Shown: positions 2,399 through 22,554, counted from the stretch's first letter. The stretch: DNA of 45,936 nucleotides from Desulfonatronospira sp. (GCA_003551155.1 PUMA01000044.1:1-45936), one strand, 5' to 3'. Notes: generated by a model from the letters alone, not told the origin. Program-made: numbers and translations.

Positions 2399-2619
2399 TT
2401 TGCTCTCCTTGCAAAAAATGTTGGTCAGCAAAAAGACCGGTTCCGGTTCTGCTGAAATTCCTGGATAAATGGAACAGCCCAGCTAATATGTATGCTTTCC
2501 AGGGAAAATAAAAGCTGAATCCGGGCTTCACCGGAGATAATAATGGAGATGTGTCAGTAGTCTTCAAAGGGGGGTGGTTTATAATCATTAAGCCATACAT
2601 GGGGGCTGGACGACTTTCA

Positions 2620-2639
2620 GTGCCGGCCAGGGCCGGCAC
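2620..2639. other. Perfect GC-rich inverted repeat just downstream of the kamA-like stop
   Basis: GTGCCGGCC-AG-GGCCGGCAC (9 bp arms). No T-tract follows on either strand. Confidence 0.6.
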
Positions 2640-2645
2640 AAAGGT

Positions 2646-3719
2646 TTATTCCGGAATAACCGGCAAGGAAGTATTCTGGTTGAGATAATTCCGCAGAATA
2701 TACTCCCTGTCCGTCTTTTCCCGGATGTAATAGTCAGGCATCAGGGGCACCTTGCCGATATTGGTGGCAATGACGTACATGGGCTGGCAAAGACCGGTGG
2801 TATGCCCGCGCAGGGCATCCCGGATCAGTTCAGCACCCTTTTCCACAGGTGTGCGGAAATGGTCTATACCCGGCGCTGGTTCACAATAGAACAGATAGTA
2901 TGGTCTGATGCGCACCGCCAGAAGCTTCTGGTGCAGTTCCCTGAAGGATTTTACATCATCATTAATTCCCTTGAGCAGAACCGCCTGGTTGCCCACATTG
3001 ACCCCGCAGCGCAGAAGGTCAAAAACAGCTCTGGCTGTTTCTTCGGTGATTTCCCTGGAGTTGTTGCACTGGGTGTTGATCCAGATGGGGACCCGATGGA
3101 AACTTCCCAGGATTTCCCTCAATTCCTTATTGATTCTCTGGGGCAGGACTATTGGAGTGCGGGTGCCGAAGCGGATCATCTGTACGTGTGGAATTCGCCT
3201 GAGTTCGGTAATGATCCGGTCCAGCTTGTCATCGGAAAGAATGAAGGGGTCCCCTCCAGTGACCAGAACGTCGCGGACCTCGGGATGTTCCCTGATCCAG
3301 CCGAGGCCCTCGTCTACATCGAAACGCAGGCTCAGGCCCTGGTCCACAACCAGTTCCTTGCGAAAACAATGCCTGCAATAATTGGCGCAGACATCAGTAA
3401 CAGTAAAGGCGATGCGGTCCTGGTACTGCCTTGCAATACAGTCGGGCCTCTTTTCGCCCACCGCCCTGTTTTCCTTGTAGATCAGGTAATCCTTGCGTCC
3501 GTACTGGTTCTGATTTTCAAGAAGCGATGGAATTACCTGCCTTCTAATGGGGCATGCCGGGTCATCACGGTCCATGAGCGAAGCGAAATAGGGAGTAGTT
3601 CCCCACCTGGTGTGCATGGAACCTATGGCCAGGTCTTCTTCCGGAGTTATATTGATATATTCCGCCAGTTTTTCCCTGGTGTTGACCATCTGTTGCAGTT
3701 GTTTAATCCACTCTTGCAT
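2646..3719 (-). CDS. KamA-family radical SAM protein (lysine 2,3-aminomutase-like), substrate uncertain
   Basis: Radical SAM motif CANYCRHCFRK; KamA family motifs LVTGGDPF, IRFGTRTPIVLPQRI, HFRTPVEKGAELI, VPLMPDYYI. Confidence 0.9.
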   Translation of the reverse strand: MQEWIKQLQQMVNTREKLAEYINITPEEDLAIGSMHTRWGTTPYFASLMDRDDPACPIRRQVIPSLLENQNQYGRKDYLIYKENRAVGEKRPDCIARQYQDRIAFTVTDVCANYCRHCFRKELVVDQGLSLRFDVDEGLGWIREHPEVRDVLVTGGDPFILSDDKLDRIITELRRIPHVQMIRFGTRTPIVLPQRINKELREILGSFHRVPIWINTQCNNSREITEETARAVFDLLRCGVNVGNQAVLLKGINDDVKSFRELHQKLLAVRIRPYYLFYCEPAPGIDHFRTPVEKGAELIRDALRGHTTGLCQPMYVIATNIGKVPLMPDYYIREKTDREYILRNYLNQNTSLPVIPE

Positions 3720-4116
3720 TTTTAATACCTCACATAAATTTTATTCAAAGAAACATAGGAAACCGGGGTAATAAAAAGTTATCCCGGCTGAGGAGGTTTT
3801 TTTCTTTGTTTGCAATGGGTATTTTTCTGCATTGGTGGACTCGTAACAACCTAGAATAAAATGTGTTATATTTTCAGCTGGCTGCCCGGAGAAATGCTGT
3901 TCAGACGGTTAATATTTTTAGTTCTAAATTAAAACTATCGGGTATAATCGACCAGTTGGGTTATCATTTATTATACCTTAATCATGAAAAGGCAATTAGT
4001 ATGTGCTCCAGCCCTGGTCAAGCAAATTCTCAAATAAGCTTAAAAGATTATTGTTTTTCTGCAGCCGTGCAGTACATATTACAGGGACGCGGTTTGAGAT
4101 TCAAGGCAACAGGGGG

Positions 4117-4449
4117 CTAAACGGCTATGTCCCTGTTTCTGATGAGCTCATCCACTGAATCGATCATTGCCTCGCGCTGTCTGGAATCCGCGTACACGAT
4201 GCAGCGGCATCTGAGTTTTTGCTGGCTGCGCACCAGGAGTTCGAGTTTCAACCAGTCCTGGCCCAGCTCCAGGGCCATGTAATAGGGTCCGCACTCCTGA
4301 GCATGTTCTTTCTGGGTCTCGGCCCACAGGTTCCGGGGCAGAGGCAGCCAGAACAAGCCTTCCAGAGGAGTCTTGTAATGCTCCCTGAGGTGGGAGGTAA
4401 TGGTTTTCATGTCTTTTGCCCTTAGTTCCTGTACCAGGTAGGAGCGCAT
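4117..4449 (-). CDS. Small conserved-looking protein following hemA, 110 aa
   Basis: MRSYLVQELRAKDMKTITSHLREHYKTPLEGLFWLPLPRNLW...; ATG at 4449 lies 1 nt past the hemA stop codon, implying coupling. The longer 154 aa ORF start overlaps hemA. Confidence 0.75.
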   Translation of the reverse strand: MRSYLVQELRAKDMKTITSHLREHYKTPLEGLFWLPLPRNLWAETQKEHAQECGPYYMALELGQDWLKLELLVRSQQKLRCRCIVYADSRQREAMIDSVDELIRNRDIAV

Positions 4450-4450
4450 A

Positions 4451-5770
4451 TTACTTCCTTTTTTTCTCCGTATGGGCGTTTTCCGGAATCTGTTCCTCGT
4501 CAAGATTGAATATCTTGCGGGCCAGGTCAATGAACTTTTCTGCGGAGCCCTCCTCCTGGGCCCTTCTTTTGAGAAAGACAATGGGTTCGTGATACAGCTT
4601 TCCCACTAGGGATACAGCAAGATGTTCCAGTATCTGTATGGTTTTGGGGTCCACTTCCTGAGGCAGGTTACGCAGGGATTTTTTAACCTCTTTGCGGGCT
4701 ATGGCTTCTCCCTTGTTTAACAGATCTACTATGGTGGGGCTGAGGTCCAGCGAACTGAGCCATTTTTCAAATTTGTCCACCTCCTGGTCCACTATTTTTT
4801 CTGCTTTCCGGGCCTCTTCCTTGCGACCGGCCAGGTTTTCCTCAACCACTTCCTGCAGATCGTCAATATCATAAAGGTATACATTATCCAGCTGGTTCAC
4901 ATCCGGATCAATATCCCTGGGAACAGCAATATCAATGAAAAACATTGGCCTGTGCTTGCGTTTTTTAAGCACTTCACTGAGGTCCCTGGCCCTGATAATG
5001 GCTGAGGAGGATCCGGTGGAGCTGATCACGATATCCGCCTGGGGCAGATACTTGAAAAGATCTTCCAGACACAGAGGCTGGCCTTTGAATCTGTGGGCCA
5101 GCTCTCTTGCCCTTTCCAGGGTTCTGTTGGCCACCAGGATTTCTTTAAGTCCATTGTTCAGAAGGTGCAGTGCAGCCAGTTCAGCCATTTCTCCGGCACC
5201 GATGAGCATGGCCCTGTGCAGGCTAAGCTCTCCGAAGATTTTTTTGGCCAGTTCCACAGCAGCATAACTGATGGAAACAGCGCTGGATGAAACAGCTGTC
5301 TCCGTCCGGGTCCTCTTGGCCGAGGAAAACGATTTGTGCAGCATCCGGTTGATGATCACCCCGGTGCTGTGTTCCTCCACTGCCTTGCGGTAGGCGTCCT
5401 TGAGCTGACCAAGGATCTGGGGCTCCCCCAGGACCATGGAATCCAGACTGGCAGCTACTGAAAAGAGATGGCGCACTGCATCTCTGTCAGTAGAAGTGTA
5501 GATGTGGGAAGAGAGCAGGTCCGGATCTGCCTGGCAGAACCCGGCCCAGGTATCCATTACCTTTTCCCGGACCAGATGCTGTTCAGACAGGCCTACGCAG
5601 AGTATTTCCACCCGGTTGCAGGTGGACAGCACCAAGGCTTCCAGGACAGGCCCCTCTTTTTCCACCAGCTTCTGGGAAATCGGATTGAATCCGGTCAGGG
5701 CGAACTTTTCCCGGATCTCCACTTCAGCTGTCTTATGATTGAGGCCGAAAAGGTATATCTTGTGTTCCAT
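4451..5770 (-). CDS. hemA: Glutamyl-tRNA reductase
   Basis: MEHKIYLFGLNHKTAEVEIREKFA...LSTCNRVEILCV...GEPQILGQLKDAYRKA...LIGAGEMAELAALHL. Start at 5770 matches the family N-terminus. Confidence 0.95.
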   Translation of the reverse strand: MEHKIYLFGLNHKTAEVEIREKFALTGFNPISQKLVEKEGPVLEALVLSTCNRVEILCVGLSEQHLVREKVMDTWAGFCQADPDLLSSHIYTSTDRDAVRHLFSVAASLDSMVLGEPQILGQLKDAYRKAVEEHSTGVIINRMLHKSFSSAKRTRTETAVSSSAVSISYAAVELAKKIFGELSLHRAMLIGAGEMAELAALHLLNNGLKEILVANRTLERARELAHRFKGQPLCLEDLFKYLPQADIVISSTGSSSAIIRARDLSEVLKKRKHRPMFFIDIAVPRDIDPDVNQLDNVYLYDIDDLQEVVEENLAGRKEEARKAEKIVDQEVDKFEKWLSSLDLSPTIVDLLNKGEAIARKEVKKSLRNLPQEVDPKTIQILEHLAVSLVGKLYHEPIVFLKRRAQEEGSAEKFIDLARKIFNLDEEQIPENAHTEKKRK

Positions 5771-11873: not shown

Positions 11874-14633
11874 CTAGGCCAGTCTCCTGCGGAAAAAGGC
11901 CTTTTCCAGCTCCACCGCCAGAAAGACTATGATCCCGAATACAGCTATCCTAAGCCAGGACTCCAGACAGACGGGTTCGGTATTGAAGATATACTGCATA
12001 AAGGGAAGATAGGTAAATCCAAGCTGGAGTACGGCCAGTACGGCTATGGAAATCAGAACCTCCCTGCTGCCCAGGATTCCTTTCAGGTTCCAGGCCGGTT
12101 CATGGATGAAGCGGCTGTTGAACAGGTAAAAAACCTGGCCCACCACCAGGGTGTTTATGGCCGTGGAGGAGGCCAGTTCCTTTGAGGCTCCGCTGGAGAG
12201 CATGTATTCATAGTGGCCCAGGGTACCAATAACCAGGAGCAGCGACACCGAGGCAACCCGCCATACAAGAAACCCCGAAACCAGGGGTTCTTCCGGCGGT
12301 CTTGGCGGCCTGCTCATGACGTTTCCCTCTGAAGGTTCAAAGGCCAGGGCCAGGGCCAGGGTGACCGCGATGATCATGTTGATCCACAGGATCTGGGGAG
12401 GAGTGATGGGCAGGGAATACTCCCCTGAGGCATCCATAATCCCTATGCCCAGAAGTATTGAGGCAATTACCACCAGGGCCTGGCCCCCATTGGTGGGCAG
12501 GATGAACAAAATGGCCTTTTTCAGGTTGTCGTAGACTGTGCGTCCTTCTTCCACTGCATTGGCAATGGAGGCGAAGTTGTCGTCAGCCAGGACCATGTCC
12601 GAGGCTTCCTTGGCAGCTTCCGTACCTCCCCGGCCCATGGCCACGCCCACGTCGGCCCTCTTAAGGGCAGGGGCGTCATTAACCCCGTCTCCGGTCATGG
12701 CCACGATTTGATTGCTGTCCTGCAGGGCCTGGACCAGCCTTAGCTTGTGCTCCGGGCTGGTACGGGCATAGACGTCAACCAGGGGCGCTTTTTCTTTCAG
12801 TTCTTGATTACTCAGCTTTTCCAGATCCTTTCCCGTAAGATAAGTCTCTCCGTCTCCAATGCCCAATTCATTCGCGATGGAGACCGCTGTCAGTGCATGG
12901 TCCCCGGTGATCATCTTAACGTTGATCCCTGCGGATTGGCAGTCACGCACGGATACGCACCTGCCGATAAGCCTGGCCGTGGCCTTGACCGCCTCCTCCC
13001 GGGGAGGATCTATGATCCCGAAGAGACCGAGGAAAGTAAACCCATCCTGCACATCTTCCTCTGCAAGTCTTTTTTTCCCTTGAGCAACTGTTTTTCGGGC
13101 CACTGCCAGAAGCCTCTGGCCCCTGGAGGCAATGGCTCTTCCCTGCTCATGCCAGAAATCCTGGTCCAGAGGCTGATGGTTTTCCACTGAAGCCTGGGCC
13201 GAGCACCTCTCCAGGATGCTTTCGGGTGCACCTTTTATGATTATGCAGGGAACGCTTTCTGGTGAGCCGTGCAGGGTAGCCATGAATTTCCTGTCTGAAC
13301 TGAAGGGAATGCTGTCCAGCCTGGGATGCGTGTCGTTCTCCCTGGCCTGATCCAGGTCCGCCTTCATGGCTGCTGTAACCAGGGCCCCTTCGGTTGTGGC
13401 CCCCTCCAGGCGATAAATACCGTCTTTTTCATAAACTTGTGCATCATTGCAGAGCAGGGCATTCCGTAACGTCTCCATCAGCACTGAGTGCTCTTCCGGT
13501 TGGATCTCCTTTCCTTCCAGCCTGAAGGAACCGTCAGGGGAGTAGCCTGCTCCTGTAATATTAAAAAAGTGTTCAGCGGTCTTTACGCTTTGCACAGTCA
13601 TTTCATTCTTGGTCAGGGTCCCTGTTTTGTCCGAACAGATAGTGGTTACCGAACCCAGGTTCTCCAGGGCGGGGAGTTTACGGATGATGGCGTTGCGCCT
13701 GGCCATTCTCTGAACGCCTATGGCCAGAGTGATGGTCATTATAGCAGGCAGCCCCGCAGGAATGGCAGATACCGCCAGACCCACCGCAGCCATGAACATT
13801 TCTCCGGGGGCAAACTGTCTGACCAGGATGCCGAATGCAAAAGTGGCCAGAGCCAGCACCAGGATAGCTGCAGTCAGAAAATGGCCGAATCTGGTAATTT
13901 TTTTCAGAAGAGGGGTGGTCAGAGTCTGCACCTGGGACAAGAGTGCACTGATACGTCCAATCTGGGTGTACTCACCAGTGGAGGCCACTATGCCTGAACC
14001 CTGTCCATAGGCCACGAGTGTTCCTGAAAATGCCATGCAGGAGCGATCCCCCAGGCTGGCCTCGGGATCCGTTTCAAAGATGTTTTTGTTAACCGGGATT
14101 GACTCCCCGGTCAGCGCAGCCTCGTCGATTTGCATATCTCTGGCCTGAAAGAGCCTGAGATCTGCCGGAACCTTGTCTCCGGCCTTGAGCAGAACAACGT
14201 CGCCAGGAACCAGCTCATCAGCCGGCACCGTTGTTTTTTGGCCGTTTCGCAGGGTTACCGCCTTAGGGGCAAGCATTCCACGCAGACTGTCCAGGGACTT
14301 TTCCGCTTTGCCTTCCTGTATAAACCCGATAAATGCGTTGACCAGGCAAACTGCAAAAATGACTGCCGAATCCACCCATTGCTGGAGCAGGGCTGTGACT
14401 GCTGACGCCACCAGCAGGACATAGATAAGAATATTGTGAAACTGCTGCAAAAAACGCTGGACCGGGCCTTTCTGTTTGTACTCAGGAAGCTTGTTGGGTC
14501 CAAACCCTGCCAGTCTTTTCCTTGCCTCCTGTTGACTCAGGCCCTTTTCCGAGGTCTGCAGTTTTTGGAAGGCTTCCTCCACAGGCATTGCGTGCCAGGT
14601 GTGATGGATGTTTTTTCTGGAATACGTGTCCAC
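11874..14633 (-). CDS. Cation-transporting P-type ATPase (type II, Ca2+/PMR1-like)
   Basis: CSDKTGTLTKNEMTV, ALTGES, MITGDHALTA, MTGDGVNDAPALKRADVGVAMG, N-terminal cation ATPase domain and C-terminal TM domain; 919 aa. Confidence 0.93.
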   Translation of the reverse strand: MDTYSRKNIHHTWHAMPVEEAFQKLQTSEKGLSQQEARKRLAGFGPNKLPEYKQKGPVQRFLQQFHNILIYVLLVASAVTALLQQWVDSAVIFAVCLVNAFIGFIQEGKAEKSLDSLRGMLAPKAVTLRNGQKTTVPADELVPGDVVLLKAGDKVPADLRLFQARDMQIDEAALTGESIPVNKNIFETDPEASLGDRSCMAFSGTLVAYGQGSGIVASTGEYTQIGRISALLSQVQTLTTPLLKKITRFGHFLTAAILVLALATFAFGILVRQFAPGEMFMAAVGLAVSAIPAGLPAIMTITLAIGVQRMARRNAIIRKLPALENLGSVTTICSDKTGTLTKNEMTVQSVKTAEHFFNITGAGYSPDGSFRLEGKEIQPEEHSVLMETLRNALLCNDAQVYEKDGIYRLEGATTEGALVTAAMKADLDQARENDTHPRLDSIPFSSDRKFMATLHGSPESVPCIIIKGAPESILERCSAQASVENHQPLDQDFWHEQGRAIASRGQRLLAVARKTVAQGKKRLAEEDVQDGFTFLGLFGIIDPPREEAVKATARLIGRCVSVRDCQSAGINVKMITGDHALTAVSIANELGIGDGETYLTGKDLEKLSNQELKEKAPLVDVYARTSPEHKLRLVQALQDSNQIVAMTGDGVNDAPALKRADVGVAMGRGGTEAAKEASDMVLADDNFASIANAVEEGRTVYDNLKKAILFILPTNGGQALVVIASILLGIGIMDASGEYSLPITPPQILWINMIIAVTLALALAFEPSEGNVMSRPPRPPEEPLVSGFLVWRVASVSLLLVIGTLGHYEYMLSSGASKELASSTAINTLVVGQVFYLFNSRFIHEPAWNLKGILGSREVLISIAVLAVLQLGFTYLPFMQYIFNTEPVCLESWLRIAVFGIIVFLAVELEKAFFRRRLA

Positions 14634-15099
14634 CTTGAATTCTCCGGATTGAGTTTTTGTCGAACTTTGCTGGCCAGAACAAAAGGAGACGACAGAGATT
14701 TAACTTTTGTCCTGTTGCTGAAATTGTCAAGAGAAGGCCGGAAAATAAAAGCAACTCAAATTAATATAAGCTGATTCATGCAGGAATTATGATTTCTGAA
14801 CATGATCTGAATCCAAAAACAAAAATTGAGAAAAAAAGAGTTTTTTAGAGAAAAATGAAAGTTTACCTGTGAAAAAAAAGATGCACAAGCTGATGACCTG
14901 CTCGTAAATTACGCAGCATCCTGGATTTAGCTCAGGGCTCAGCTTGTTAAAATCACCAGCCGATTAGTGTGCTCTTATCAAAAAAAAATAAAGCAAATTA
15001 GAATGTTATAATGCAGAGTGACATTGGTCTGTCTGGGTTGCAAAAGACCTGATTTTTCCCCTTGCCTGCCTGAGAGTTATTGGACTAAATCATGGCCCT

Positions 15100-16449
15100 A
15101 TGAAAGACGCATGGGAAAGAATCCAGATAATTCTTGAAAAATCCTTGAAACCTGGGATTTTCCAGCTTTGGATCAAACCGTTGCAGGGCTGTTTTGATCC
15201 CCAGAGGCAGATACTCAAGCTTGTGGCCCCCAACGAGTTTGTGGCTTCCTGGGTGCGCGAGCGTCTTCAGTCTTTTATAATCCAGGCAGGTCAGGATGTC
15301 CTGGGCCTCACCACCGCGCTGGAGATAGATGTTCTCAAGGAAGGCGAAACAGGCGGACCCATGGGCTGTAATGCCCGGAGCAGGCCCAAGGAGAGCCTGA
15401 TTCATCTTCCAGTGCAAAGCAATATTCATATAGTTTCCAGGTTCAGGTATAATTTCAGCGAATTTGTGGTAGGTCCCTGCAATGAACTGGCCTTTGTGGC
15501 CTCAAAAAACTTCTGCAAAAAAAGCGTTGCCACGGATCAGCTCTTTTTGTGTTCATCCACCGGTCTGGGCAAGACTCATCTGGTCCAGGCCATGGGCAAC
15601 ACTCTGGCGGATGCGGCCAACAGGAAAGAGCTGCGTCTGGCCTACCTGACAGCTGAAGAGTTTACCAGCCATCTGATTCAGGCTTTCAAGGCCAAGCAGG
15701 TGGACCGGTTCAAGGCCAGGTTCAGGGATCAGATTGATGTGCTTCTTCTGGAGGATATCCATTTTTTCCAGGGTAAAGAAAAAATGCAGGGCGAATTTCT
15801 GTCCACCATCAATTCACTGCAGTGCCAGGGCAAAAAAGTGGTGTTGAGCAGCTCTTTTCTGCCCAAGGAACTGAATGACCTGGATTCCAACCTGATCTCC
15901 AGGCTTTGTCAGGGGTTCATGGCCGTGATTGACAAACCTGACTTTAAAACCAGACAGGAAATTTTACGTCAAAAGGCCAGGTCTTTACAGGTAAGCATTC
16001 CTGAGGAGGTGGCCCACATGCTGGCTGAACGGATTCAGACCGATGTGCGTCAGCTTGAGAGTTGCCTAAGCAACCTGGTGTTCAAGGCCAGGACGCTCAA
16101 ACAAAGGATTACCCTGGAAATGGCCATGGAAGTGCTTAAAAATTATGATCTGCAGGAGCAGAATCTGGATCTGGAGCAGATTATCAGTTCGGTCTGTCGG
16201 GTTTTTGATCTCCCCCGGGAAAAAATTTGTTCCAAAAGCAGGAAAAAACAGCATGTTCTGGCCAGGAACCTGGCTTTTTATCTGGCAAGGAAGTATACTG
16301 ATCATTCTCTTAAACAAATCGGCTATCGCTTTAACCGCAAGCACACCACTGTGCTCAAGGGCATTGCCAATGTGGAGCGGGAAATCTCCAGCAACACCCC
16401 TCTGGGCAGACAGATCAAGGAAACCGCGAGCCGGGTGATGCCCGCCTGA
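15100..16449 (+). CDS. dnaA: Chromosomal replication initiator DnaA-family protein (divergent)
   Basis: Domain I WERIQIILEKSLKPGIFQLWIKPLQ; Walker A STGLGKTHLVQAMGN; Walker B VLLLEDIHFFQGKEKMQGEF; LDSNLISRL; C-terminal HTH DHSLKQIGYRFNRKHTTVLKGI. Confidence 0.9.
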   Translation: MKDAWERIQIILEKSLKPGIFQLWIKPLQGCFDPQRQILKLVAPNEFVASWVRERLQSFIIQAGQDVLGLTTALEIDVLKEGETGGPMGCNARSRPKESLIHLPVQSNIHIVSRFRYNFSEFVVGPCNELAFVASKNFCKKSVATDQLFLCSSTGLGKTHLVQAMGNTLADAANRKELRLAYLTAEEFTSHLIQAFKAKQVDRFKARFRDQIDVLLLEDIHFFQGKEKMQGEFLSTINSLQCQGKKVVLSSSFLPKELNDLDSNLISRLCQGFMAVIDKPDFKTRQEILRQKARSLQVSIPEEVAHMLAERIQTDVRQLESCLSNLVFKARTLKQRITLEMAMEVLKNYDLQEQNLDLEQIISSVCRVFDLPREKICSKSRKKQHVLARNLAFYLARKYTDHSLKQIGYRFNRKHTTVLKGIANVEREISSNTPLGRQIKETASRVMPA

Positions 16450-17343: not shown

Positions 17344-18216
17344 GTGCATCTGAAAAGTGTTACATATCAGAACCAACTTATGCAGGTATCAGCCATAATC
17401 GCCACCTATAACCGGGCTGGCCATATCAGCAAAGCGGCTGCCTCGGTTCTTGGTCAAAGCTTAAAGGATCTGGAACTCATTGTGATCGATGACGGATCCA
17501 CAGACAGCACCCGGGATGTACTCCAGAATTTCAAAGATAAGCGATTAAAATTTTTTTATCAAGAAAACAAGGGGGTGGCAGCAGCCCGCAACTTAGGCCT
17601 GAAAATGGCCCGTGGAAGATATGTGGCTCTTTTGGATTCCGATGACTACTGGCTGGAGGATAACCTCATGCTCCAGGTGCGTTTCATGCGGGACACCGGC
17701 TTTATGGTGTCGCAGACCCTCGAGGCCTGGGTGCGCGGTCATGAAACAGTCAGCCAGGGAGTGAAACATCAAAAATATGCAGGCTGGATATTTGAAAAAA
17801 GCCTGGACATGTGCTTGATCAGTCCATCCTGTGTAATGCTGGATCAGGACCTGGTCCGTCAGGGTTACCTGTTTAACGAAGATCTGCCTGCCTGCGAGGA
17901 CTACGATTTATGGGTGCGCTTGACTCTGCGGTATCCGGTTGGTCTATTGCCCAGGGTTCTGACCGTAAAACAGGGAGGTAGAGGAGATCAGCTCTCCAGA
18001 AAAATAATAGGCATGGATCTCTGGCGCATATATGCCTTGTCGGGACTGTTGCAAAGAAAGGGGGTGCCCCGGGACAAACAGGCTAAAGTAATGGATGCAC
18101 TGGAGCAGAAAGCAAAAGTGTATACAGCCGGCTGTCTTAAAAGGGGCATAGAGGTGGAGGCTCTGCGAATAAAAAATCTGGTGGCAAGTCACAAACAAAA
18201 AAAAGCGGACCCCTGA
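17344..18216 (+). CDS. Glycosyltransferase family 2 (alternative start 17380)
   Basis: MQVSAIIATYNRAGHISKAAASVLGQSLKDLELIVIDDGSTDSTRDVL...GVAAARNLGLKMARGRYVALLDSDDYW. Confidence 0.9.
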   Translation: MHLKSVTYQNQLMQVSAIIATYNRAGHISKAAASVLGQSLKDLELIVIDDGSTDSTRDVLQNFKDKRLKFFYQENKGVAAARNLGLKMARGRYVALLDSDDYWLEDNLMLQVRFMRDTGFMVSQTLEAWVRGHETVSQGVKHQKYAGWIFEKSLDMCLISPSCVMLDQDLVRQGYLFNEDLPACEDYDLWVRLTLRYPVGLLPRVLTVKQGGRGDQLSRKIIGMDLWRIYALSGLLQRKGVPRDKQAKVMDALEQKAKVYTAGCLKRGIEVEALRIKNLVASHKQKKADP

Positions 18217-18227
18217 AGGTCCGCTTT
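18202..18227 (-). terminator. Intrinsic terminator of dsrC, overlapping the 3' end of the glycosyltransferase gene
   Basis: AAAGCGGACC-CCTGAA-GGTCCGCTTT perfect 10 bp stem; on the minus strand it is followed by TTTTTGTTTGT. The glycosyltransferase TGA (18214-18216) is inside the loop. Confidence 0.85.
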
Positions 18228-18251: not shown

Positions 18252-18569
18252 TTAGACGCAACCGGTGGGTTTGGGAAGGCCGGCCATCTTACATGCTCCC
18301 TTGCCGGGTCCGGAGGGGAACAGTTCATAGATGTGTTTGAGCTTGAATCCGGTTACCTTGGACAGAATTCTCACCATGGGTGCGATCCCGTTCTTTTTGT
18401 AGTAGTCCTGCAGAAATTCGATGACCTTGTGGTGCTCATCAGTGAGCTCCTTGATGCCTTCGCTCTCCTTTACATATTCTACCCACTCCGGGCTCCAGTC
18501 CTCAAATTTTTGCAGGAAACAGTCTTCGTCTACTTCAAATTGTTTTCCCTTGAACTCGACAAATGCCAT
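18252..18569 (-). CDS. dsrC: DsrC/TusE/DsvC-family sulfur-carrier protein
   Basis: MAFVEFKGKQFEVDEDCFLQKFEDWSPEWVEYVKESEGI...YYKKNGIAPMVRILSKVTGFKLKHIYELFPSGPGKGACKMAGLPKPTGCV, with both C-terminal cysteines of true DsrC; AGGAGG-type RBS. Confidence 0.96.
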   Translation of the reverse strand: MAFVEFKGKQFEVDEDCFLQKFEDWSPEWVEYVKESEGIKELTDEHHKVIEFLQDYYKKNGIAPMVRILSKVTGFKLKHIYELFPSGPGKGACKMAGLPKPTGCV

Positions 18570-18690
18570 CTTTCATACCTCCTTGGTTGATTTTCAGGTT
18601 AGGATGCACTGACCGTGACAGCGCTGAACCCTTCCTTTCTGGTGTATCCCAGGCCTTTTTGGGCCAGAAATTTCTGGTTGCATAAAAATT

Positions 18691-18720
18691 ATCATAAGAT
18701 TGGATATACTTTTTTGTCAA
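18691..18720 (-). promoter_or_regulatory. Putative sigma70 promoter of dsrC
   Basis: Minus strand TTGACA (18720-18715), 18 nt spacer, TATGAT (18696-18691). Confidence 0.6.
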
Positions 18721-18751
18721 TGCCTTTTATCAGGAAAAATCATGAAAGCTC

Positions 18752-20479
18752 TTAAAAAGTTAGTTCTTCCAGATGCTTGCGTGCGGAAGTTAGGCCGGGC
18801 TCTATTTCCAGAGCCGTGGTCAGCATTTCAGCGGCTGCCTGTTTGAGTCCCATCTCCCGGTAGCACAGGCCAAGATTAACCATATCCATGACTGATCCAC
18901 TGTCCAGATGCAGCGCTTTTTGAAAGTCATGCATTGCAGGCTCATAATCTTTTTGTTTGTAATAAGCAACCCCGCGCAGATTAAAATATTCCTTGACCAG
19001 AGGATCAAGGTCTATGGCCCTGTTTAAATACTCTATGGATTCAGGCCACTTTTCCTGTCTGGACAGCGCGTAGGCAGCATAAAAGGCACACAGGGCCCTG
19101 GATTCTTTATCGGTCTGCACCGTTTCTGCTCTGGAAAAAAGCTGGGCAGCTTTTTCAGGGTCTTCCCTGCGCAGCAGGTTCATGCCCTGGTAAAAAGGCA
19201 GAAAAGAAGCGCCTGGATAAATATCCGCGAGTTTTTTCAGCCTGTCCAGGGAAGTAAACGGATTCTCCTCCTCTGCAAGAACGCGGCCCACCAGCATGCC
19301 TATGCTGGCCTGCCGCGTTCTTTCCCGGAACAGAAAGCCCGGAACGAAATTGTAATTGCAGGGAATCTCCAGATCAGGCTGCATAGTGGAGAGGGAATAT
19401 AAATTATAGCCCATGTGCGCAAGATCGCGGCCAAGTGATGTTAATTCAAAGCCCATATCCGGATGGGAAAGATCAGGAAGGCGGTCAATGGGCGAGCAGG
19501 GTCCAGTAGTCAGCCAGTTTATTTGCTCCAGGGAATAAAATTTGGGCAGGCCTGAGGCCTCATAGTTACTGCCGGTGTGAAAGTCTCCAGCCAGCTGAGC
19601 TACTTCTGTCAGTGCACGGATAGCTGCCTTGGACGGTGAAGTTGCAGTGCCCGCCGAGAACACTATTTCGCTGAGGGCCGGAAAGGTCTGAGGGTCGTAG
19701 GCCAGAGCACCTACTGTGGGTACGGGAAAGCCACAGGTGAAATCCTTGAGCCAGACCCGGATACCCTGTCGGGCAAACCTGGCCAAGAGTTCCTTCAGGG
19801 TGGAATCGTCCGCTGATTCCGGATCAATGGTTGGTGTGACCGGGCGTTTTATGTCCACAAGTGCGCAGACATGTCTTTCCACCAGTTCACATGCCCCCTG
19901 GAGAATGGACTCCTCAAAAGTGTTTCCTGCGCTGCTCCCGTTAAACTCATTGAGTTTTTTGAACCAGTCCAGGGGGACGTATTCCTCCTGCTCTGCATAA
20001 ATATTTGTTGTCGGAGTGAACATCCAGGAGACGAGGTCCAGGACTTCATCAGCCTGCTCTTCAGAGATGTTCTCCTGTACGGACTTGATAATCTCGGCGG
20101 GGGGAATGAGCTTTTTATCCCATCTGGCCCGTGCCTTTTTCCAGGTCAGCCGGACAAAGTTTTCCTGGTTATTCAGGAAACTGAAATAGGAATACCTTTC
20201 AGCCAGCTCCATCAGGGCTGAGCTTCGGGCCTGGGCCGGTGAAGCGCCCTTGCCCATCTGCTGCCGCTTGGGCACGCCCATTGTCCTTGCTTTTACGCCA
20301 TAATAGCTGAGGTATACCGGGATGCCCAGCCGCCCGGTATCTATGCGTTTCAGGTCCTTTAAAATGGCCTGGCCATGTCTTTGGAAGGTCCTGGTAACCT
20401 TTGCTGCTGTTTCTTCCGGGGTCAGCGCCTTGTCCGCATCAGCAGTATATTTTTTGGGGCTTTTTTTTATTCTGATCAT
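18752..20479 (-). CDS. YcaO-domain protein with C-terminal TPR repeats
   Basis: YcaO motifs GKGASPAQARSSALMELAERYSYF, ILQGACELVERHVCALVD, AAIRALTEVAQLAGDF; then TPR-like KWPESIEYLNRAIDLDPLVKEYFNLRGVAYYKQKDYEPAMHDFQKALHLD. 575 aa. Confidence 0.88.
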   Translation of the reverse strand: MIRIKKSPKKYTADADKALTPEETAAKVTRTFQRHGQAILKDLKRIDTGRLGIPVYLSYYGVKARTMGVPKRQQMGKGASPAQARSSALMELAERYSYFSFLNNQENFVRLTWKKARARWDKKLIPPAEIIKSVQENISEEQADEVLDLVSWMFTPTTNIYAEQEEYVPLDWFKKLNEFNGSSAGNTFEESILQGACELVERHVCALVDIKRPVTPTIDPESADDSTLKELLARFARQGIRVWLKDFTCGFPVPTVGALAYDPQTFPALSEIVFSAGTATSPSKAAIRALTEVAQLAGDFHTGSNYEASGLPKFYSLEQINWLTTGPCSPIDRLPDLSHPDMGFELTSLGRDLAHMGYNLYSLSTMQPDLEIPCNYNFVPGFLFRERTRQASIGMLVGRVLAEEENPFTSLDRLKKLADIYPGASFLPFYQGMNLLRREDPEKAAQLFSRAETVQTDKESRALCAFYAAYALSRQEKWPESIEYLNRAIDLDPLVKEYFNLRGVAYYKQKDYEPAMHDFQKALHLDSGSVMDMVNLGLCYREMGLKQAAAEMLTTALEIEPGLTSARKHLEELTF

Positions 20480-21204
20480 GTTCTGGATTTCAGTCTGTAT
20501 ATGGTTACCTGCTCGTTTTCACCCTCTGCAGCTTGAACTGCTCGTTCCTTCCAGCTCACATTCTTGTATGTTATGGAAAACTCTTTCTGGGCCTTTTGAA
20601 AAAAGGCAGAGGGTTTGCGTCGCAGGCTTGCTGACAGCAGGATCTCTGCCTCTGAACCTGAAGCAAGATGATTTTTCAAGAAAGCCACCAGAGCCGGATA
20701 GTAGCTGTCCAGGTAAAGGATTTCAGCACCGATGATGTACGTAAAAGCTCCGGATAATTCGTCCCGGGTGAAGTCCACAGCCTGTACCCGGGCCCGGTCC
20801 TGTAAATTGTTCTTCAGGATATTAATGTTGGAGAAAAGCAATGCATCTTCATGGTTGTCTGTAATGGTCACCTGATAGCCTCTGGCTGCAGCGCAGAGGC
20901 CGCAAAGCCCAAGACCTGCGCCGAGTTCCAGGACGTTCTTATGCTTATTTGCGGGTGGCAGGGAAAGAAGGTGGTAGCTGAGCAGAATCGAAGCCGGCCA
21001 GATCTTGGCCCAGAAAGGCAGGTCAATGCGCTCTTTGCTGGTTTCAGCCAGATAATCAATATATTCATCCAGATTGGCAATCTGCAGCAATTCCAGGGAG
21101 ATGTCTCCGATCCTGACCGTTTCAAAACCGACTTGAAACCTTTCCCTGGCCCTGTTCAGGAGCAGATCCAGATCGTTGGCTTGCAAAAATCGGCTGTTCT
21201 GCAC
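20476..21204 (-). CDS. Class I SAM-dependent methyltransferase (METTL/protein lysine methyltransferase-like)
   Basis: LPFWAKIWPASILLSYHLL...VLELGAGLGLCGLCAAARGYQVTITDNHEDALLFSNINI; overlaps the YcaO start by 4 nt (ATGA). Confidence 0.85.
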   Translation of the reverse strand: MQNSRFLQANDLDLLLNRARERFQVGFETVRIGDISLELLQIANLDEYIDYLAETSKERIDLPFWAKIWPASILLSYHLLSLPPANKHKNVLELGAGLGLCGLCAAARGYQVTITDNHEDALLFSNINILKNNLQDRARVQAVDFTRDELSGAFTYIIGAEILYLDSYYPALVAFLKNHLASGSEAEILLSASLRRKPSAFFQKAQKEFSITYKNVSWKERAVQAAEGENEQVTIYRLKSRT

Positions 21205-21768: not shown

Positions 21769-22554
21769 TCAAGTGCAATTTCTGGTGAGCAGGTTTTTGT
21801 TATTCATTTTTGCCGGGTGGTTATCTTCATGGATCAGGAAGTGTTCAATGCCGTCCAGATGGCGAAAGCAGGTATTTTCACGGATGCCCGCCAAGACCTT
21901 TTCCTTGTCTTTGACCACGGCCCCGGCCAGATAATTAAGACCCATTCTGAACAATGAAAAGGCCAGGGGAGTGCTCGGACCCATGAGGATTTTGATGCAC
22001 CCGGGGGGACACAGGTTCAGGATGAAGGCCAGGGAGCTGTTAAGCAGGGTGGTGGCGGTAATGGCCACCACCTGAGTCCGGGGCAGAACACTGGGGAGCA
22101 TGCTTTCGGGTAAATCAAATTCCCTGGGCCTTTTCTCCATGACCCAGAAGTTTTTGAACTCATGTTTTATTTTGTGTACAAAAGGAAAATGGCCGATGAT
22201 GGCAACGTTCTTATCCTTGCCCAGCTCCACTATGAGGTCCTGGGCTTTTCTTTCAGGGCCAGACGCCCTTGTGTTCAGGCGGGAGTTTATACCTGCCAGT
22301 GCCCAGGAAGACTCCAGGGTTCCCTGCTTCATAAGCCCGGACGCCAGGGTGTGAATAAAGGCAGGCAGTTCCGTGTTTTTTTCCAGACTGTCAATCCTGT
22401 CGTCTGCAGGGAGAATGGAACAGAGACCGGCTGAACTTGTGGTCTCTACCCCCACCAGAGATGATCCCCGAACATGGTTAATCACCTGTTGGTTATCCAG
22501 TTCCATGGCCTCCTGTACAACGGCCCTGAGTATATCCTGCTGGGCAAGAGGCAT
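21769..22554 (-). CDS. DUF364-type (putative heavy-metal chelation/Rossmann-like) protein
   Basis: VGVETTSSAGLCSI...SSWALAGINSRLNT...VAIIGHFPFVHKIKHEFKNFWVMEKRPREFDLPES...VVAITATTLLNSSLAFILNLCPPGCIKILMGPSTPL. Confidence 0.75.
   Translation of the reverse strand: MPLAQQDILRAVVQEAMELDNQQVINHVRGSSLVGVETTSSAGLCSILPADDRIDSLEKNTELPAFIHTLASGLMKQGTLESSWALAGINSRLNTRASGPERKAQDLIVELGKDKNVAIIGHFPFVHKIKHEFKNFWVMEKRPREFDLPESMLPSVLPRTQVVAITATTLLNSSLAFILNLCPPGCIKILMGPSTPLAFSLFRMGLNYLAGAVVKDKEKVLAGIRENTCFRHLDGIEHFLIHEDNHPAKMNNKNLLTRNCT

Follow-up and report, generated by a model that had tools for sequence, protein, structure and literature searches.

Gene content of the locus

Three genes follow one another on the minus strand of the window (the whole 45,936-nucleotide stretch of Desulfonatronospira DNA analyzed here), encoding a METTL21-like methyltransferase, a YcaO domain protein with a C-terminal TPR region (YcaO-TPR), and DsrC (Table 1). 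The methyltransferase ORF starts with GTG and its end shares ATGA with the YcaO start; 182 bp separate the YcaO stop codon from dsrC. The three genes and their overlap, located from the sequence alone in the original prediction, were borne out by coordinates and Pfam matches, as were the separate promoter and terminator that it had assigned to dsrC. The protein it had called a bona fide DsrC matched PF04358 (E 1e-37), scored 123 bits against the 53.5-bit cut-off of TIGR03342, retained both redox cysteines (Cys93 and Cys104), and also matched the DsrC chains 2v4j and 2xsj. DsrC belongs to the TusE sulfur-relay family. The source genome encodes a single YcaO, and its dsrAB genes are located on another contig. 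As predicted, no RiPP-precursor-like ORF was evident between the genes, and a conserved RiPP precursor was rejected, none being recognized among the largest clusters of ycaO neighbors.

The methyltransferase belongs to the Methyltransf_16 family (PF10294, E 3e-20; 73 bits against a cut-off of 21), with METTL21A as its best PDB match by profile (1e-18). The 13 folds in the PDB closest to its AF2 model (pLDDT 84.9) were all protein-lysine methyltransferases or their relatives.

Other genes near the locus, or near dsrAB, recur in related genomes. A DUF364 gene (putative heavy-metal chelation; 21769-22554, minus strand) lies 5' of the methyltransferase and is kept in part of the class, and a 449-aa DnaA-like protein (15100-16449, plus strand) has a position a few kb from dsrC that is kept in several relatives. 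Upstream of dsrA in the source genome (L160, 7248-7880) is a gene for a 210-aa TPR protein, found near dsrAB in many genomes of the phylum.

Table 1. Features of the methyltransferase-ycaO-dsrC locus, in window coordinates
Feature	Coordinates	Strand	Basis
METTL21-like protein-lysine methyltransferase, candidate DsrC/Apr lysine methyltransferase	20476..21204	-	PF10294
YcaO-TPR protein, candidate DsrC backbone thioamidase	18752..20479	-	PF02624, E 1e-59
YcaO catalytic domain, aa 75-382	19334..20257	-	
TPR superhelix at the C terminus (about aa 406-574), presumed to bind a partner or substrate	18758..19264	-	TPR matches and model
dsrC promoter-like site TTGACA-18-TATGAT, near-consensus	18691..18720	-	11/12 consensus bases
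dsrC, DsvC type	18252..18569	-	PF04358, TIGR03342
Codon of DsrC Lys48; corresponds to the Lys found with +42 Da in the D. vulgaris peptide ..DHQK*IIDF..	18426..18428	-	PMC3125180
Codon of DsrC Ser70; position is Cys in lineages without YcaO-TPR	18360..18362	-	
Codon of DsrC Lys78; corresponds to the Lys found trimethylated in the D. vulgaris peptide LK*EVYELFPSGPGK	18336..18338	-	PMC3125180
Codon of DsrC Gly89, proposed YcaO target	18303..18305	-	Covariation with YcaO
Codon of the redox cysteine DsrC Cys93, four positions C-terminal to Gly89	18291..18293	-	
Codon of DsrC Cys104, redox cysteine	18258..18260	-	
Intrinsic terminator after dsrC, strong	18202..18227	-	11-pair stem and T run

Occurrence of YcaO-TPR with Dsr

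A full-length YcaO-TPR orthologue was encoded in 174 of 199 genomes of the source genome's class. Among 143 further genomes of the phylum, 46 encoded the full-length protein and 45 of these also carried dsrA, compared with 24 genomes carrying dsrA only and 73 carrying neither (Fisher p 2e-18). Hence, YcaO-TPR implies Dsr but Dsr does not imply YcaO-TPR. The lone exception was a MAG of 62% completeness, with a congener that carries both genes; we left out of the count one truncated YcaO hit, from a dsrA-negative MAG of 76% completeness. By family, 22 outside the class had both, none had YcaO only, 11 had dsrA only, and 30 had neither. DsrD, or a reductive-type Dsr, was rejected as the true correlate, many genomes lacking YcaO-TPR having DsrD. 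In four class members (G011, G123, G142, and G159; L360-L365), ycaO and a dsrC encoding Gly89 were kept with no dsrA above the cut-off. In a wider genome scan, the best 80 of 370 matches were, by their titles and as far as named, all from the source phylum.

In most families of the class dsrC directly follows ycaO, including 24 of the 29 best-matching relatives, and in some genera it lies elsewhere. ycaO was near dsrC in 43 of 155 loci, spanning many families and two gene orders: dsrC precedes ycaO in one family outside the class (f21) and follows it in the other adjacent cases. Such adjacency is absent from many genomes that encode YcaO-TPR. Overall, this YcaO clade is strongly linked to DsrC. 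A 164-aa protein whose only match is DUF2934 was also found encoded directly 5' of ycaO, on the same strand, at L283 and nine other loci.

The methyltransferase has a narrower distribution. A close homologue was present in 149 class genomes, all 149 of which encode YcaO-TPR, and in 0 of the 25 class genomes without YcaO-TPR (p 3e-18, kinship ignored); none was found in ycaO neighborhoods outside the class. The gene is an addition to YcaO-TPR that is specific to the class. The test set in the original prediction, conservation of the pair near dsrC across dsr-positive genomes, came out clearly positive for YcaO, both by co-occurrence with dsrA and by adjacency in many families.

Covariation in DsrC

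In genomes with YcaO-TPR the DsrC arm reads ..FPSGPGKGACKMAG.. (GPGKGAC), and in most dsrA-positive genomes without it ..FPSGPAKGACK(V/L/I)... Outside the class, we scored residue 89 in 260 genomes by matching a DNA pattern, four YcaO-TPR genomes giving no arm. With the enzyme present, the residue was Gly in 79 genomes and Ala in none; with the enzyme absent, it was Ala in 34 and Gly in 8 (p 9e-23, kinship ignored). Within the class, about 21 dsrA-positive genomes lacked YcaO-TPR, and all DsrC arms read there carried Gly89. The archaeal DsrC proteins of P. aerophilum and A. fulgidus have Ala at this position, so Gly89 is probably the derived state.

Across 37 genomes, DsrC columns 89 (Gly versus Ala) and 70 (Ser/Thr/Ala versus Cys) misplaced a single genome (G231) with respect to YcaO-TPR, whereas the best of 781 DsrA and DsrB columns misplaced at least five of the same genomes. 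DsrAB was therefore rejected as the covarying target, no column of DsrA or DsrB sorting with YcaO-TPR. Residue 70 is Cys in nearly all proteins with Ala89 from genomes lacking the enzyme and changes in step with residue 89, family f44 included.

On a DsrAB tree of 40 genomes, YcaO-TPR changed five times and residue 89 four times; all four switches were concordant, and one YcaO loss left Gly89 in place. On a DsrC tree, built with the arm and residue 70 left out, Gly89 switched only twice, once deep in the tree and once within family f44, in which two genomes without the enzyme (G236 and G331) have Cys70/Ala89 and two with it (G271 and G303) have Gly89. Tree-aware sign tests do not reach 0.05, because independent switches are few (two on the DsrC tree, four on the DsrAB tree). 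The one-sided pattern in these sequences, in which the enzyme does not occur with Ala89 and Gly89 outlasts enzyme loss, is as expected for an enzyme and its substrate. That the enzyme occurs only with Gly89 DsrC suggests that DsrC carries an overlooked chemical modification.

The original prediction had left DsrC, DsrAB, and the ribosome as candidate targets, with DsrC as a further candidate for sulfur donor. DsrC is now singled out by columns 70 and 89 and by the four genomes that keep it and ycaO with no dsrA above the cut-off; DsrAB falls away. YcaO-TPR could still act elsewhere, for instance on ApsAB or, via RimO, on ribosomal S12, or make a small product, its association with DsrC then reflecting lifestyle or phylogeny. 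The E. coli YcaO supports RimO, the enzyme acting on S12. The small number of independent switches (two to four) also fits such a reading, as does the molybdate phenotype of a strain deleted for DVU2210, evidently the D. vulgaris Hildenborough orthologue, which has no evident link to DsrC (PMC7774982). We nevertheless judge it unlikely, given that ycaO and dsrC are adjacent in two gene orders, that DsrC, rather than DsrA or DsrB, holds the covarying signal, that the four genomes just mentioned retain ycaO with Gly89 dsrC, and that YcaO-TPR scored only 35 bits against the 700-bit cut-off of the model for the E. coli-type YcaO for S12 (NF040716). From linkage, co-occurrence, and covariation together, DsrC is the likely substrate of YcaO-TPR, modified at or near Gly89.

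Predicted chemistry and related systems

The YcaO domain scored 203 bits against the PF02624 gathering score of 25.7, placing the protein in the YcaO superfamily. Its ATP-site motifs, SxxxExxER and NxxxExxxQxxxExxER, were invariant in our alignments, supplying the ATP/Mg residues S87/E91/E94/R95 and N186/E190/Q194/E198/E201/R202. The closest fold to its AF2 model (pLDDT 89.7) was the M. jannaschii YcaO (6pe3), which also led the profile search (148 bits), followed by TruD, LynD, and MusD, with the M. kandleri and E. coli YcaO proteins well below. TIGR03266, the model for McrA-glycine thioamidation, was the best NCBIfam match, at 114 bits below its cut-off of 365. By these comparisons, YcaO-TPR is a clade of its own in the YcaO superfamily that probably works like the McrA enzyme. 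A second, shorter YcaO (~485 aa) was seen at L354 (G315; 2560-4643) and L118 (G296; 13186-15221); in one family its neighbor is a divergent DsrC paralogue (arm FPTTSERAICKIAGLPKPTGCI), in the other an ordinary dsrC.

Clustering of neighbors at 125 ycaO loci recovered dsrC, LarE, NIL-ferredoxin, and MnmA clusters. Outside the class, LarE (315 bits, cut-off 150) adjoins ycaO in 11 loci, a NIL-ferredoxin in 17, and MnmA (350 bits, cut-off 284) in 13. LarE is a sulfur transferase, LarE and MnmA are both sulfur-inserting enzymes, and NIL-ferredoxins are tied to sulfide use; such sulfur-handling neighbors favor sulfur insertion by YcaO-TPR.

Published proteomics offers a further clue. To our knowledge, no thioamide has been reported in published native DsrC structures, and our literature search found no paper linking YcaO or a thioamide with DsrC. 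In D. vulgaris, DsrC, ApsA, and ApsB carry methyl-lysines, and the DsrC peptide LK*EVYELFPSGPGK was recovered with trimethylation plus oxidation in three pull-downs, with modest scores (1.5-1.7); the protein search of that study ran at a precursor tolerance of 100 ppm (PMC3125180). This peptide contains no Met, Trp, or Cys, ends at Lys90, and has Gly87 and Gly89 as its only glycines. On it, exchange of O for S (+15.977) lies 11 ppm from oxidation (+15.995), the computed neutral masses of trimethyl LKEVYELFPSGPGK being 1604.881 when otherwise unmodified, 1620.859 as a thioamide, and 1620.876 when oxidized. Ordinary hydroxylation could account for the +16 Da, with Pro and Tyr as possible oxidation sites; we treat the shift as a lead.

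DVU2210 itself is known only from its molybdate phenotype: the deletion strain grows normally on sulfate and respires sulfite, in a sat mutant the gene adds to the sensitivity to molybdate, and DsrC goes unmentioned in that work (PMC7774982). Any modification made by this YcaO is thus not essential, and the molybdate phenotype is unexplained by thioamidation of DsrC. Both dsrC and DVU2210 were repeatedly mutated in the same syntrophic evolution experiment (PMC8319347).

DsrC might instead serve as the sulfur donor, its persulfide feeding YcaO-TPR so that another target is thioamidated, with Gly89 and Ser70 as docking adaptations. E. coli MnmA receives sulfur from TusE, in whose sulfur-relay family DsrC is placed; MnmA, LarE, and NIL-ferredoxin lie beside ycaO, and a binding surface would account for the residue covariation just as well. 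Sulfate reducers hold free sulfide, however, and so have little need of a carrier, the +16 Da sits on a peptide of DsrC itself, and glycine is the residue that a related YcaO modifies in McrA; a donor role appears quite unlikely. Far less probable still is that YcaO-TPR modifies DsrC to a product other than a thioamide, such as an azoline or macroamidine near Gly89-Cys93. Although the TruD and LynD cyclodehydratases nearly equal the M. jannaschii YcaO by profile, the model for azoline-forming SagD/TOMM cyclodehydratases (TIGR03604) gave 84 bits against a cut-off of 219, an azoline at Cys93 would cost DsrC a redox cysteine, and the published shift is +16, not -18. A thioamide is our best guess for the product, with indirect support from that peptide and from the Gly89 covariation.

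We propose that YcaO-TPR thioamidates DsrC at or near Gly89 and that the methyltransferase may methylate its lysines, a proposal as a whole that we hold to be evenly poised between right and wrong. YcaO-TPR would be a dedicated DsrC maturase, its TPR domain holding DsrC and its YcaO domain using ATP to activate a backbone amide at Gly89 or adjacent to it, with redox Cys93 lying four residues further along. The amide oxygen would then be replaced by sulfur to give thioglycine, like the action of archaeal YcaO on methyl-CoM reductase. Within the class, the METTL21-like enzyme may in addition methylate lysines of DsrC, and perhaps of ApsA or ApsB. Its role is the weakest part of the proposal. The published methyl-lysines would fit this neighbor as a candidate enzyme, and our literature search found no enzyme assigned to the DsrC/Aps lysine methylation reported in 2011, for which the METTL21-like protein becomes a candidate. 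DsrC Lys48 and Lys78 are kept whether or not the methyltransferase is present and hence uninformative on its target, so covariation was dropped as a guide to it. More tentatively, thioglycine at Gly89, beside the trisulfide cysteine, may be present in many sulfate reducers, made by a new TPR-YcaO clade and replacing an older Cys70/Ala89 type of DsrC, so that side-chain sulfur was perhaps swapped for backbone sulfur.

Much of the carbon turned over in anoxic sediments passes through sulfate reducers, and DsrC couples their reduction of sulfite to the conservation of energy. Thioamides in the backbone of proteins are very rare, methanogen McrA being the well-known case. If the proposal is true, YcaO-modified proteins serve in both methanogenesis and sulfate reduction, two great terminal processes of anaerobic life, and studies with recombinant DsrC from E. 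coli have dealt with an unmodified form. To a specialist, a concealed change in the backbone of a protein under study for decades would come as a surprise. DVU2210, known for molybdate sensitivity alone, gains a concrete candidate substrate.

One of the closest known systems is DVU2210, with the same domain order and the ATP-site peptide SAGNTEEESILQGSCELVER compared with SAGNTFEESILQGACELVER in the source YcaO-TPR. The METTL21-type protein-lysine methyltransferases (PF10294) share fold, family, and a D/ExxY-type motif with the class enzyme, which differs in being bacterial and in an operon with ycaO. E. coli YcaO (NF040716; PDB 4q84-4q86), found by Foldseek over the whole YcaO-TPR chain, likewise has a YcaO domain followed by a C-terminal region of similar length, but identity is 17% and both profile and fold match less well than those of the M. 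jannaschii YcaO. The methanogen McrA YcaO (methan_mark_1, TIGR03266; MJ1094, 6pe3/6peu) is the best match by NCBIfam model, profile, and fold, and its target is a glycine on a large folded protein of central metabolism, as proposed here for YcaO-TPR. It makes thioglycine in McrA, with a shift of 16 Da per thioglycine, and sulfur genes border its loci as well (PMC5589413). YcaO-TPR, beside whose gene no TfuA was seen, differs from the McrA enzyme in being bacterial, in its C-terminal TPR domain, and in its proposed target, DsrC.
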